In this document: in pieces, positions 20,188 through 26,619 of the stretch | How the letters are laid out: each line of letters opens with the position of its first letter | How positions within the stretch are numbered: the stretch's first letter is position 1 | DNA from: Aquimarina intermedia | GTDB lineage: Bacteria; Bacteroidota; Bacteroidia; Flavobacteriales; Flavobacteriaceae | DNA length: 64,000 bases | Reading direction: 5' to 3' | Assembly (NCBI RefSeq): GCF_008124785.1 | Contig: NZ_VNHU01000008.1 | Location: 62,001 to 126,000 of the forward strand | Program-made: the position numbers and the translations under genes | Notes under the pieces: generated by a model | What the model saw: the letters and a program-made list of their open reading frames with translations, nothing else | Told to the model about the DNA's origin: nothing | The model's database searches: none

Positions 20188-21360
20188 TTACTTTCTCAAA
20201 AAATACAATCCGATTAACGGTCCAATACTGAGTAAAACAAATAGGAAGGTGATGGGTATCGTATCGGTTAAAGCATTTAATAGTTGAATACTAATGATGG
20301 TTATCGCAAAGCCAATACAATTAACGATGGTCAATCCTGTACCTTTTAACTCGGGAGGAGCAGCATCGGCTATCATCGTCGAAAATTGAGGAGAGTCAGC
20401 GATCACAAACATTCCCCATAAACAAAGTATAATCAGAAATAAGTAAGGGGATACTGTAAAAAATAGCGGGGACGCCAAGCAAAAGAGGGCGGAGCACATT
20501 AACATGAAGCGTGCTACTTTTTTGCTGCCTATTTTTAGGGAAATAAAGCCTCCGACAACACAGGAGATAGATCCAATGGCAATAATAATAAAAGACCATA
20601 GCGCAATGGGAATAGATATGCCCTGAAGTTGAGAATATGTCTTTAAAATTAAGGGAACAAATCCCCAAAATGCATATAGCTCCCACATATGGCCAAAATA
20701 TCCAATTGCAGCTTTTCTAAAGGAAGTTATACTGAATAACTGGGTGATTACACCCAACTGAATGCGAAGTGCCGGGGATCGATACGGACCATCGGGAACA
20801 AAAATGAAAATTAAAAATCCGCCCAATGTAGACAGAAAAGAGGTGCTTAGAAGCACTGTATTAAAAGCATTATCGCTATTGAACTCAAAAAGTAAATGAG
20901 GTAATGCAGTACCCAAAACTAAAGCGCCGACCAAGAATCCAAGTGCAGTACCTAATCCTTCTTTATAATAATCTGAAGCAATTTTCATTCCTACCGGGTA
21001 AATACCTGCAAGAAAAAAGCCTGTAGCAAAACGGGCAGTGAGTAAATTAAAAATACTTATCTCAGGAAGTAACAAAGGGAGATTGGATAAGGCTCCAAGT
21101 AAAGCACACGTAAAAAAGACTTTAGAAGGTGAAAATCTATCTGCCAACGTAAGCAGTGCAAAGCTTAAGGTTCCAATAATAAAGCCAAGTTGTACCGAAG
21201 AAAGTACATAACCCTCTATGTTAAAACCTACCGTGAATTTGTTGGTGAGGTCATCAATCACCGCATTCCCTGCAAACCACAAAGAAGTGCAAAAAAATTG
21301 CGCAATGATAATAATGGGAAGTATGTGAAATTTTGATTTCAGGCGATTCTTTTTAATCAG
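20188..21360 (-). CDS. MFS-family transporter without a normal start codon
   Basis: 390 aa if read from the codon after the otsAB stop. About 12 hydrophobic segments are visible, with LWFAGNAVIDDL after helix 1, as in a flavobacterial branch of the major facilitator superfamily. The only TTG that a gene finder would choose, at 21280-21282, would remove helix 1 (ILPIIIIAQFFCTS). Upstream in the same frame the codons run CTG ATT AAA AAG directly after the TAG of otsAB at 21361-21363, with no ATG, GTG or TTG. So it starts at a CTG or ATT codon by coupled translation, or is made by stop-codon readthrough. The substrate is unknown; its position suggests a link to trehalose or osmotic stress. Confidence 0.8.
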   Translation of the reverse strand: MIKKNRLKSKFHILPIIIIAQFFCTSLWFAGNAVIDDLTNKFTVGFNIEGYVLSSVQLGFIIGTLSFALLTLADRFSPSKVFFTCALLGALSNLPLLLPEISIFNLLTARFATGFFLAGIYPVGMKIASDYYKEGLGTALGFLVGALVLGTALPHLLFEFNSDNAFNTVLLSTSFLSTLGGFLIFIFVPDGPYRSPALRIQLGVITQLFSITSFRKAAIGYFGHMWELYAFWGFVPLILKTYSQLQGISIPIALWSFIIIAIGSISCVVGGFISLKIGSKKVARFMLMCSALFCLASPLFFTVSPYLFLIILCLWGMFVIADSPQFSTMIADAAPPELKGTGLTIVNCIGFAITIISIQLLNALTDTIPITFLFVLLSIGPLIGLYFLRK

Positions 21361-23571
21361 CTACAAGTATACGAATTCTTTTAAAAGCGCATGCACCTGC
21401 TCGGTATCATCCACATAATATTGAGCAACTGTTTTTTTTAAGCCAACTTTTACCGTATGAGCAGTTTCTGGTAATTCTTTAAACATGTATTCATCGGTCC
21501 AGTCATCACCAATCGCAAATATGAAATCATAGGAGTCATCTACTAACATTTTTGACGCAGATTTCCCTTTGTTCACTCCGCTCACTTTTATTTCAAGAAC
21601 TTTATCCCCTTCTAAGATTTCAAGATTATGATTTGCAATTAATTGTTGAATTGTAATTTTGAGTTCATTAGATCTATTCTTGCCCAGTTCGGGGTCTACA
21701 TTTCTAAAATGCCAGGCCAACGAATAATTTTTTCTCTCGATTAACGAGCCAGGTGTGCGATCAGTAAAGGATTCCAAAATAGGAGCGATGGCATCAAACC
21801 ATTTGTTATCTACACGCTCAAGAAGTTCCCAATCCTTTTTAGGCTGCTTTAACCAGACACCATGTTCGGTAATCAAAGTGTAGTCCTTATAACCAAACCA
21901 TTCATCAAAAGTCATTTTATCTCGTCCTGTTATAATGACGAGTTTTGTGTTTTCTTGCTGATTCAGGGTATCAAGTACATCAAATATTTTTGATGTTGGT
22001 TTTGCATTTTCCGGAAGTTTTTCAAAGGGTGCGAGTGTTCCATCATAGTCCACAAAAAGAATTTTGTTTTCCGCTTTCTTAAACTGTTCTACTAAATTAG
22101 TTCTCGACTGATTCTCCAGTCGTTGCAAGGTGTATCGCTTGTCATGATGGGTGGAGCTTTTCAAGGCCTCCATAAAATCAGTAGCCCATTTATCTACGTT
22201 GTAACGTTTTAATCGTTTTTGCAAAGCTGAATTTCGTTTAATTTGTTCCTTTTCGGGCATTTCCAAAGCTAACTTTAGGGTGTCGGCAATTTCTTCAAAG
22301 TTATTAGGGTTGATAAGTAATGCTTCACTCATTTCATTAGCTGCCCCGGTCATTTCGCTTAAAATCAACACTCCTTTTTTGTCAACTTTTGAAGCGATAT
22401 ATTCTTTGGCAACCAAATTCATCCCGTCTCTAATAGGTGTCAATAAAGCAACTTCACTTGATGTATAGAGATCAATTAGATTCTCAAAAGGGAGGGAACG
22501 ATAAAAATACCAGATAGGTGTCCAACTAATTTCGGCAAATTTTCCATTGATTCTTCCAACCAACTGATCGATTTCTTTTTTTAATCGTTGATATTGGGGC
22601 ACTTTTGCTCGGGAAGGAACTGCAAGCATCACCAATCGAACTTTACCTTTAAACTCAGGGTATTTCTCCAGAAAATACTCAAAAGCTCTTAGGCGTTTAT
22701 CAATTCCTTTGGTATAATCCAATCGATCAATGGATAAAATCAGTTTGGCTTGATCATTATCAAGCTGATGTTTGTCTAAGCCTTGTTGAATTATACTTTT
22801 ATCTCTTTTCTCTTTTGCATTGTGAAGTTTTGCACTTTCATGAAAATTATCATAATCTATACCCATCGGAAAAGAATCGACTTTTACACTGCGATTATCT
22901 AGGGTGATGGTATTAAAGCTACTGTCGTATCCTAGTATGCGTTGTACAGAACTTAAAAAATGGCGTTCGTAATCGTAGGTGTGAAACCCCAACAAATCAG
23001 CACCCAGCATACCTTGTAATAATGCTTCTCTACAAGGGATAGTTCTAAATACTTCGTAGGAGGGAAACGGAATATGCAGAAAAAAACCGATGGAAACATC
23101 GGATCTCTTTTTGCGTATAAGATTAGGGACCAATAATAATTGATAATCATGTATCCAAATCCTGTCTCCGCTTTCGACCGTATCTAGGATTACATTGGCA
23201 AATTTTTGGTTAACGACTTGGTAGGTTTCCCAGGTATGTTTTTCAAATTCAGTATATTCTAAGAAGTAATGAAACAGAGGCCATAGCGTAGTATTGCTAA
23301 AACCATAATAATACTCATCAACCTCTTTTTTTGTTAAAGAAACACCTAAGCACTTATGGGCTAGTAATGTACTGTCTATTTTTGCTTTTATGCTATCGTC
23401 AATTTCTTCTTCATTTACACCATTCCACCCAATCCATATACTATCATTAGCTGCATGCACCGGCTTCATTCCAGTGGCTAATCCACCAACGCTAGGAGTA
23501 CTGGTTACTATTTTATTATCGATATGTAATTGCAGTGGTAGTCTGTTTGATATAATGATAGTTTTACTCAT
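21361..23571 (-). CDS. otsAB: Bifunctional trehalose-6-phosphate synthase / phosphatase
   Basis: 736 aa. Residues 1 to about 470 are a GT20 synthase: SNRLPLQL, GGLATGMKP, WIHDYQLLLVP, RLDYTKGIDKRL, and LTPIRDGMNLVAKEYIASK. Residues about 500-736 are a HAD phosphatase: FVDYDGTLAPFE near residue 505 (DxDGT nucleophile), TGRD, and GDDWTDEYMF near the end. The first half joins glucose from UDP-glucose to glucose-6-phosphate, and the second removes the phosphate to give trehalose. Such fusions are common in Bacteroidota. The gene is divergent from the GH15 gene (95 bp between starts) and is followed in the same frame, after one TAG, by the MFS gene. Confidence 0.97.
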   Translation of the reverse strand: MSKTIIISNRLPLQLHIDNKIVTSTPSVGGLATGMKPVHAANDSIWIGWNGVNEEEIDDSIKAKIDSTLLAHKCLGVSLTKKEVDEYYYGFSNTTLWPLFHYFLEYTEFEKHTWETYQVVNQKFANVILDTVESGDRIWIHDYQLLLVPNLIRKKRSDVSIGFFLHIPFPSYEVFRTIPCREALLQGMLGADLLGFHTYDYERHFLSSVQRILGYDSSFNTITLDNRSVKVDSFPMGIDYDNFHESAKLHNAKEKRDKSIIQQGLDKHQLDNDQAKLILSIDRLDYTKGIDKRLRAFEYFLEKYPEFKGKVRLVMLAVPSRAKVPQYQRLKKEIDQLVGRINGKFAEISWTPIWYFYRSLPFENLIDLYTSSEVALLTPIRDGMNLVAKEYIASKVDKKGVLILSEMTGAANEMSEALLINPNNFEEIADTLKLALEMPEKEQIKRNSALQKRLKRYNVDKWATDFMEALKSSTHHDKRYTLQRLENQSRTNLVEQFKKAENKILFVDYDGTLAPFEKLPENAKPTSKIFDVLDTLNQQENTKLVIITGRDKMTFDEWFGYKDYTLITEHGVWLKQPKKDWELLERVDNKWFDAIAPILESFTDRTPGSLIERKNYSLAWHFRNVDPELGKNRSNELKITIQQLIANHNLEILEGDKVLEIKVSGVNKGKSASKMLVDDSYDFIFAIGDDWTDEYMFKELPETAHTVKVGLKKTVAQYYVDDTEQVHALLKEFVYL

Positions 23572-23666
23572 AAAATGTGGTTAAAGGAGGTCAATTGTTT
23601 TTTTTATTTTTTAAATTTCGTGAATCGAGACTTAATAAAAGACTTTTTAAAAGAATTTTAGTATTT

Positions 23667-25478
23667 ATGAATAACTTGGACTACGGAATTATTGGAAACT
23701 GTAAGAGTGCAGCCCTCATTTCAAAATATGGCTCTTTAGATTGGTGTTGCTTGCCTAATTTTGATTCTTATTCAGTATTTGCCAAGATTTTGGATGAGAA
23801 AATAGGAGGGAGCTTTAGTATAGAAGTGGGAGATGATTATACTATTTCTCAAAAGTATATTCATAAAACAAATATTCTGGTTACCGAGTTTAGTAATGGC
23901 ACCGATGTCTTCGAATGTATTGATTTTATGCCACGATACAAAAATGAAGATGGCTCTTTTTATGCTCCGCCAGATGTCATACGATATATTAAACTTATCT
24001 CGGGAACTCCCAAATTTACTCCGCATTACCATCCCAAACTAGAATATGCGCTGGGTGTTACCGAGTTTGAGGTAGCAGATGAGTATATTAAGAGTATTAA
24101 TAATGAAGATAAATATGACACCCTATATCTTTACTCTAACTTCAATCTTCAGGGAGTTCATGATTCTCAAGAAATTGAATTGAGAGAGCATGGCTATTTT
24201 GTAATTAGTTATCACGAGAAAATCTTAACGCAATCCTTGGAGCGTTGCTATTTGAAATTACAACGTACACGTGTTTACTGGCTCAACTGGAGCGAAAATA
24301 CAACGGAATATAAATATTACAACGATCAAATTTTACGAAGTGCTTTAGTCCTCAAATTATTAAGTTATGATAAATCCGGAGCGGTATTGGCAGCAGCAAC
24401 TACCTCGTTACCCGAAACTATCGGGGAGGTTCGTAATTGGGATTATCGTTTTTGCTGGATTCGTGATGCTTCTATGGTAATAAAAGTAGTCTCCAATTTA
24501 GGACATAAGCGATTAGCACAACGTTTTCTTCAGTTTATTATTGATATCATACCCGATAAGGATGAAAAGATACAAATCATGTATGGGATCAATGGAGAAA
24601 AAGATCTTACCGAAAAGACATTGGATCATTTAAGCGGCTATCAAAATTCAAAACCTGTTCGTATTGGGAATGCTGCGTATCATCAAAAACAAAATGATAT
24701 TTATGGTATTCTGATGGATGTTATTTACCAGCAATTTGCCGAGTTTGAATGTGATCTAGATAACAGTGAGGGCTTGTGGACAATATGTAAAAGTATTGTA
24801 CACATCGTTAACGTGAATTGGGAAAAAGCAGATAAAGGGATATGGGAATTTAGGACCGAAGAGCGGCATTTTACTTTTTCTAAATTATTATGCTGGGTAG
24901 CGATAGATCGTGCTATAAAAATCGGTAAGTTAATTAATAAGCCAAAAACAAATCCACGTTGGGTAGCACTAAGAGATCGTATTTATGAGGACATTTATGA
25001 AAATGCGTGGAACGAGGATATTCAGGCGTATACGCAATCATATGGTACTAGTGACCTGGATGCTTCAACGCTGTTAATGGAATCTTATGGGTTCATAACT
25101 GCAAATGATCCTCGATTTATAAGTACCGTCAAGGCTACAGAACGTGAATTATGTAATAACGGGCTCATGTATCGCTATAAGAATAAGGATGATTTTGGGT
25201 TGCCTTCTTCTTCTTTTACGATCTGTAGCTTTTGGTTCATCAATAGTTTATATAAAATTGGAGAAAAAGAAAAATCGAAGCGGTTGTTTGATCAATTGTT
25301 ATCGTATAGCAATCATCTAGGCTTGTTCAGTGAGGATATAGATTTTGACAGTAAACGTCTGTTGGGCAACTTTCCTCAAGCGTATTCACACCTGGCACTT
25401 ATAGAAACCGCCGCTAACTTTTCCGGAGGTCTAACCAAGGAGGAGGAAGTAATGGATATTATTCATCACGATCAGTAG
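23667..25478 (+). CDS. Glycoside hydrolase family 15 protein (glucoamylase- or trehalase-like)
   Basis: 603 aa from the ATG at 23667 (MNNLDYGIIGNCKSAALISKYGSLDWCCLPNFDS); an upstream TTG at 23577 would add 30 unconserved residues. The N-terminal beta-domain is followed by the (alpha/alpha)6 barrel, with the GH15 signature GEVRNWDYRFCWIRDAS near residue 250. GLYSEDIDF-like LFSEDIDFDSKRLLGNFPQAYSH near the C-terminus is also typical. Members cut alpha-glucans or, in some bacteria, trehalose. Because it is divergent from otsAB, a trehalase role is attractive but unproved. The 3' end overlaps that of the convergent MscS gene by 20 bp. Confidence 0.93.
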   Translation: MNNLDYGIIGNCKSAALISKYGSLDWCCLPNFDSYSVFAKILDEKIGGSFSIEVGDDYTISQKYIHKTNILVTEFSNGTDVFECIDFMPRYKNEDGSFYAPPDVIRYIKLISGTPKFTPHYHPKLEYALGVTEFEVADEYIKSINNEDKYDTLYLYSNFNLQGVHDSQEIELREHGYFVISYHEKILTQSLERCYLKLQRTRVYWLNWSENTTEYKYYNDQILRSALVLKLLSYDKSGAVLAAATTSLPETIGEVRNWDYRFCWIRDASMVIKVVSNLGHKRLAQRFLQFIIDIIPDKDEKIQIMYGINGEKDLTEKTLDHLSGYQNSKPVRIGNAAYHQKQNDIYGILMDVIYQQFAEFECDLDNSEGLWTICKSIVHIVNVNWEKADKGIWEFRTEERHFTFSKLLCWVAIDRAIKIGKLINKPKTNPRWVALRDRIYEDIYENAWNEDIQAYTQSYGTSDLDASTLLMESYGFITANDPRFISTVKATERELCNNGLMYRYKNKDDFGLPSSSFTICSFWFINSLYKIGEKEKSKRLFDQLLSYSNHLGLFSEDIDFDSKRLLGNFPQAYSHLALIETAANFSGGLTKEEEVMDIIHHDQ

Positions 25479-26508
25479 TACCATGTGGCTTATCCAAATA
25501 AATACGTGTATGAGGGATGCTTTCTGTATGATGTTTTTGAATAAACATAAGTAACTTTTCTCGAACGAGTACCCGTAGATCCCATGCGTCAGACGAGTTT
25601 CTGGCGCTCATAAGTGCTCTTATTTCAATAGCGTCTTTAGTTGCGTTCGTCACCTGAATATTTTGAACATTATTATCCCACAAAGGGGTGTTATCCAAAA
25701 TATTTTTTAGTTCGGTACGTAAGGCTTCAATTTGAATCTGATAATCGGTGTAAATATATACAGTACCTAAAAGATCCGAAGAGCTTCGCGTCCAATTTTG
25801 AAAGGGTTTTTCAATAAAATAGGTTGTCGGTACAACCAGTCTTCTTTTGTCCCATATTTTTATAACGACGTATGTCAAAGTTATTTCTTCAATGGTACCC
25901 CATTCTCCCTCTACAATGACTACATCATCCATTCGTATTGGTTGTGTAAAAGCAATTTGAATCCCGGCCAATAAAGTTCCTAATGCCTTTTGTGCGGAAA
26001 AGCCTATGATGATACCTGCTACTCCGGCCGAAGTAAGCATACTCACACCTACACTGCGTATACTATCAAAGCTCATAAGTGCAACACCAATGGCAAAGAG
26101 GATGATAATAAAAATAACAATCCGTTCCAATATATTAAATTGGGTATAAATTTTACGAGCTTGCAGGTTATCAGATACGCTGAGATCATAATGTCGTATT
26201 ACGCGATGCTTGATAATTTTGATCGTTACGATCAATCCCCAAGTGATGGATATAATATAAAGGACTGTGCTTATTGATTTGATATATTCAAAGTAGTGTT
26301 CGGGAATATATTGACTTACCAGACCCAAACGTACCCCGGTGGCTAACAAGAATAGAAATAAAGGAATCTTGATACGTTTGGCAAAACGAACCGGTAAAAT
26401 GGAATTAGAATTCTTACCGATTTTTTGTAATAAAAACTGCAGTAAGAAAAAAGTAACAAGTAAAACTAGTATCCCGATTGCAATTTGTTTAGCGAACTGT
26501 AAATCCAT
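25459..26508 (-). CDS. MscS-family mechanosensitive channel
   Basis: 349 aa from the ATG at 26508 (MDLQFAKQIAIG); an earlier start at 26589 would add 27 residues. There are four or five membrane helices. The last one lines the pore (SVGVSMLTSAGVAGIIIGFSAQKALG), and the MscS beta-domain follows (IRMDDVVIVEGEWGTIEEITLTYVVIKIWDKRRLVVPTTYF). These channels open on membrane tension and let solutes out after osmotic downshift, which suits its place beside trehalose genes. Its 3' end overlaps the GH15 gene by 20 bp in a tail-to-tail arrangement. Confidence 0.95.
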   Translation of the reverse strand: MDLQFAKQIAIGILVLLVTFFLLQFLLQKIGKNSNSILPVRFAKRIKIPLFLFLLATGVRLGLVSQYIPEHYFEYIKSISTVLYIISITWGLIVTIKIIKHRVIRHYDLSVSDNLQARKIYTQFNILERIVIFIIILFAIGVALMSFDSIRSVGVSMLTSAGVAGIIIGFSAQKALGTLLAGIQIAFTQPIRMDDVVIVEGEWGTIEEITLTYVVIKIWDKRRLVVPTTYFIEKPFQNWTRSSSDLLGTVYIYTDYQIQIEALRTELKNILDNTPLWDNNVQNIQVTNATKDAIEIRALMSARNSSDAWDLRVLVREKLLMFIQKHHTESIPHTRIYLDKPHGTTDRDE

Positions 26509-26619
26509 GAGGTAGCCTATTTTAAGCAAAAATACAGGTGTTATTAATAAATTGTAAGGAAATAGTTTTAAAACTATGCTAATATTCAAATTTTAGTGGA
26601 TAATGAAACTTCACTAACT

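Follow-up and report, generated by a model that had tools for sequence, protein, structure and literature searches.

A CTG codon as the probable, genus-conserved start of an MFS transporter gene behind otsAB in Aquimarina

The MFS transporter gene that lies behind otsAB in Aquimarina intermedia is very probably an ordinary, separate gene that starts at a CTG codon, and, judged against its homologues, it is neither damaged nor part of a fusion. At the level of aligned sequences, the data presented here establish the position of this start, the conservation of CTG or TTG at that position across the Aquimarina orthologue group, and the absence of any conserved alternative. As bacteria are known to use CUG starts, albeit very rarely, we regard the case as a well-supported new instance of a known phenomenon. 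It is unusual, however, for CUG to be the majority start codon throughout a genus, and a keyword search of the open literature found no report of such a case.

The window is a 64,000-nt stretch of contig NZ_VNHU01000008.1 (positions 62,001 to 126,000 of the forward strand), from an assembly with a completeness of 99.98%. At the junction of interest (Table 1), the minus strand reads ...GTA TAC TTG TAG CTG ATT AAA AAG AAT CGC CTG AAA TCA AAA TTT CAC ATA CTT CCC ATT.... A first-pass annotation had described otsAB and the MFS gene as sharing one frame split by a single TAG, with no ATG, GTG or TTG ahead of the first membrane helix, and the sequence confirms both points: the frame is open from 23571 to 20188 apart from that TAG, after which it continues for 390 codons, and the first in-frame canonical triplet is the internal TTG, at which a start would result in the loss of most of helix 1. 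Read from the second CTG of the junction, the transporter is a 384-aa protein, (fMet)KSKFHILPIIIIAQFFCTSLWFAG, with a match to MFS_1 (PF07690) over residues 12-349 (E 6.6e-23; 81.6 bits against a gathering cut-off of 33.4). A search of the PDB returned no relative by sequence with an E-value of 0.01 or lower.

Table 1. Features of the otsAB-transporter junction, in window coordinates.
Feature	Coordinates	Strand	Basis or remark
otsAB, bifunctional trehalose-6-phosphate synthase / trehalose-phosphatase	23571..21361	-	736 aa, ATG start; PF00982 + PF02358; NCBIfam NF011071, 1037 bits vs cut-off 634
otsAB stop codon TAG	21363-21361	-	sequence
Spacer, otsAB stop to CTG start, 18 nt	21343..21360	-	counted as N-terminus in the first-pass annotation
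Inferred CTG start codon of MFS transporter	21340..21342	-	homologue alignment, conservation onset
MFS transporter gene read from CTG, 384 codons + stop	20188..21342	-	Pfam, orthologues
Internal TTG, first in-frame canonical start triplet	21280..21282	-	ORF list; inside helix 1

On the other side of otsAB, a GH15/trehalase-like gene (PF00723 and TREH_N, 23577-25478, plus strand) lies head to head with it, and the 3' end of this gene overlaps a convergent mechanosensitive-channel gene (25459-26589, minus strand) by 20 nt. The region from 23571 to 26589 looks like an osmotic-stress/trehalose cluster. By association, the neighbours of the transporter (trehalose synthesis, the GH15/trehalase-like gene and the mechanosensitive channel) suggest an osmoprotection or sugar context for it.

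To place the start, we compared homologues from 80 named loci in GTDB species genomes and from matches in 33 of 57 relatives. The alignment was anchored on a conserved QFxxTSLWF motif, and the start column was defined as the codon 14 positions before the conserved Q. Of 103 distinct homologues, 85 have an NTG triplet here (38 TTG, 21 ATG, 20 CTG and 6 GTG), and in most of the other 18 a canonical start lies in frame a few codons off. Where the column holds ATG, that codon is often the sole canonical start available (L031, L032, L037, L054, L067 and L081). In the Maribacter orientalis homologue (L021), the ATG of the start column is directly followed by GTG, and either one could be used.

Orthologues are present in most Aquimarina genomes, with 65-71% identity to the protein of the window, and the start column of the 31 distinct Aquimarina orthologues contains 19 CTG and 12 TTG codons. 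Leucine (or the start codon) occupies 18 columns in all 31 sequences, and only in the start column is the third base always G; in the other 17, a third-base G is found in 1 to 16 of the 31. Leucine codons in the body of these genes are NTG in 17% of cases and CTG in 4.5%, but because the sequences are related, the product of such codon frequencies is not a p-value. The contrast between the start column and the 17 internal control columns on the same tree is nonetheless clear.

The onset of conservation coincides with the same codon. Mean pairwise nucleotide identity per codon is ~0.3-0.5 upstream and 0.33 in the codon just before, rises to 0.84 at the CTG column, where the second-position T and third-position G are invariant, and remains high from there on, with a codon periodicity. 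Neither the sequence nor the length of the 18-nt spacer is kept among relatives. In 19 of the 20 CTG species there is no ATG, GTG or TTG from the preceding in-frame stop to the CTG, and in the sole exception (L007) the upstream ATG and TTG fall within otsAB; two of these species (L006 and L009) also lack any other near-cognate triplet in this interval. Downstream of the CTG, the first in-frame canonical triplet occurs anywhere from codon +12 to codon +62 and is not conserved.

We also searched 69 Aquimarina genomes for a 26-base N-terminal motif with HTG, examining part of the matches by full alignment. The motif was present in 50 of the 69 genomes, with CTG in 32, TTG in 18 and ATG in none; two further TTG matches of different sequence (G030 and G028) were treated as unrelated and are outside the 50. 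A control pattern with a non-G third base gave 7 matches in the same 69 genomes, of which the 2 in G475 were examined as sequence and the other 5 were judged from position and sequence only. Considered as exceptions to the invariant G, the 2 G475 matches were rejected, as the transporter gene of that genome is on a different contig and neither match falls within it. Copies at a greater distance (47-52% identity) for the most part carry ATG or TTG at the site or close to it, and a family-wide search outside the genus with the CTG pattern, a strict one, matched only short unrelated frames. On the gene tree, several branches of which are weakly supported, four changes between CTG and TTG are enough to account for the states at the start column. 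The genome from which the window comes forms a long branch in this tree and measures 3.49 Mb, against 4.3-7 Mb in most complete congeners; it perhaps represents a lineage that is reduced or divergent within the genus.

We propose that initiator fMet-tRNA would read the CTG weakly, yielding a protein that begins fMet-Lys-Ser-Lys-Phe-His-Ile-Leu-Pro. Because a CUG start is weak, translation of the transporter would be expected to be low and to depend mostly on ribosomes coming off the co-directional otsAB, whose stop is 18 nt upstream, by translational coupling or reinitiation. An A-rich upstream context, with A at -6 and -12, may assist, as has been reported in Flavobacteriia; among the 20 CTG species, A is found at -6 in 15, at -12 in 13 and at -3 in 7. 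Counting against the CTG start are the great inefficiency of CUG starts in E. coli (PMC11497404) and the C at -3 in the window, a position where A is the strongest reported context. An altered initiator tRNA (the M1-type G30-C40 swap; PMC11497404) was considered as a cause and rejected. The GGG/CCC anticodon stem of tRNA-fMet is normal, with GGGCTCATAACCC intact at G000:C1:512623-512635, within a tRNA gene, and in 37 of 37 genomes searched, so relaxed discrimination by the initiator tRNA does not account for the CTG start.

The arrangement of the genes makes reinitiation after otsAB termination plausible, as the spacer is short and non-ATG starts are enriched close behind upstream genes. The distance from an upstream ORF stop to the start is at most 35 nt in 16 of 19 CTG genes, 22 of 38 TTG genes and 3 of 21 ATG genes, suggesting that a supply of ribosomes from termination nearby makes a weak start tolerable. 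This association between CTG and closeness to an upstream gene is confounded by phylogeny: a tree-based test of CTG against adjacency to otsAB had four independent contrasts, one of them on well-supported branches, which gives it too little power, and it did not reach significance. It is possible, though on balance somewhat doubtful, that the CTG start is real and that expression is independent of otsAB, with ribosomes binding directly to an unstructured, A/T-rich leader. Consistent with this, the spacer measures 66-95 nt in some of the CTG species, and in three loci (L085, L102 and L103) a CBM9-like lipoprotein gene (PF06452) takes the place of otsAB upstream of the CTG start; the 16 of 19 CTG genes close behind an upstream stop are suggestive of the opposite. 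As for a separate promoter between otsAB and the transporter, no minus-strand promoter-like site was found near the junction, and counts in the region showed no excess over shuffles, which together are weak evidence against one.

Other upstream partners were observed among TTG-start homologues. In the A. macrocephali clade (L010, L004, L083, L084 and others), the transporter follows the CBM9-like lipoprotein gene (PF06452) by a few nucleotides (4 nt by the ORF limits of our script). In Maribacter and relatives (L013, L018, L020 and L022), the homologue lies 10 nt or less behind a gene for a beta-propeller-like protein, which, judged by eye, has an apparent SnoaL/NTF2-like C-terminal part.

As one of three options, the first-pass annotation had offered coupled reinitiation at a CTG or ATT, namely the CTG adjacent to the TAG (21360-21358) or the ATT that follows it. 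Both are near-cognate triplets close to the otsAB stop, but neither has a conserved in-frame counterpart in relatives; G462 (locus L121), whose spacer is much like that of the window, reads CTC CTT at this place, and conservation sets in only six codons beyond the TAG-adjacent CTG. Initiation at either triplet is therefore improbable. The earlier proposal anticipated the kind of start correctly but not the codon: the CTG that we favour (21342-21340) is the seventh codon after the TAG, within the interval that the annotation covered, and had been passed over.

It is very unlikely that a recent mutation broke an ATG and left the gene decaying or translated from the internal TTG. The missing canonical start ahead of helix 1 and the long branch of the window's copy would fit such an event, but all 384 codons stand in an unbroken frame with 65-71% identity to orthologues, and the orthologue group has CTG or TTG throughout, with ATG at the site in 0 of 50 genomes. 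As the CTG is old in the genus, we reject this explanation. A sequencing error at the junction, also raised earlier, is excluded, as 31 further genomes share the CTG at the aligned position. Comparison with relatives, which the annotation had suggested as a check for separate genes and an ATG, thus bore out the former and gave none of the latter in the 50 Aquimarina orthologue genomes.

The chance that readthrough of the TAG fuses OtsAB and the transporter into one protein of about 1127 residues is negligible: in this genome a single TAG is indeed the only break in one open frame, but where otsAB is the neighbouring gene in relatives, its stop (TAA or TAG, mostly TAA) occurs in each of the three frames (0, 1 and 2) relative to that of the transporter, the spacer ranges from 2 to over 100 nt, often with further in-frame stops, and is not conserved as protein, and in the A. 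macrocephali clade the transporter is not behind otsAB at all. G462 even has an in-frame TAG like that of the window, yet its otsAB stops at a TAA in another frame. Because the stops of relatives occupy all three frames, the frame shared by otsAB and the transporter here is a one-in-three coincidence.

A conserved poor start has precedent in infC, the gene for IF3, which in E. coli and other bacteria begins with a clade-conserved, deliberately poor AUU and is autoregulated by IF3. The transporter resembles infC in the clade-wide conservation of a poor start, but shows no sign of IF3 autoregulation and has an NTG codon rather than AUU. Among bacterial start codons generally, CUG accounts for 0.024%, and in E. 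coli its expression is 0.86% of that from AUG (PMC11497404). The features of these rare starts (reviewed in PMC11497404), namely a first-base-mismatched NUG, an ordinary initiator tRNA and the expectation of weak initiation, are shared by the proposed start of the transporter. Switches of ancestral starts to CUG were counted at 2 of 61,358 for AUG, 1 of 5,080 for GUG and 1 of 2,468 for UUG (PMC5622118); unlike such CUG starts, which are usually sporadic, the CTG of the transporter is found in most members of an orthologue group that spans the genus (32 of 50).

Carbohydrate regulators of the Enterobacteriaceae have conserved GTG or TTG starts that are kept by selection and set expression low (PMC11445065). 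The likeness lies in non-ATG starts in sugar-related genes; the difference is that those genes are regulators with GTG/TTG, whereas the Aquimarina gene encodes a membrane transporter with CTG/TTG. Initiation in Bacteroidetes proceeds without Shine-Dalgarno pairing; low structure and adenines at -3, -6, -12 and -13 favour it (PMC6847099). The Aquimarina starts resemble the SD-independent, Kozak-like initiation described in that work for Flavobacterium johnsoniae, a member of the same bacterial class, in that A at -6 and -12 is common, and differ from it in that A at -3 is absent in the window; the main text of PMC6847099 mentions neither CUG nor CTG.

It is conceivable, although we consider it rather unlikely, that the CUG/UUG start is a selected device that would keep the transporter low, tie it to translation of the gene in front and possibly make it responsive to conditions that alter initiation stringency. 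We are just as tentative about the corollary that the gene in front would be otsAB in one lineage and the CBM9-like lipoprotein gene in another. In practical terms, gene callers restricted to ATG, GTG and TTG must truncate the transporter inside helix 1 in each CTG species, because the first canonical triplet in frame comes 12 to 62 codons into the gene. For the biology of the genus, the persistence of so rare a start offers a natural test case for how CUG is accepted by ribosomes that work without Shine-Dalgarno pairing, and for whether coupling to an upstream gene makes CUG tolerable.
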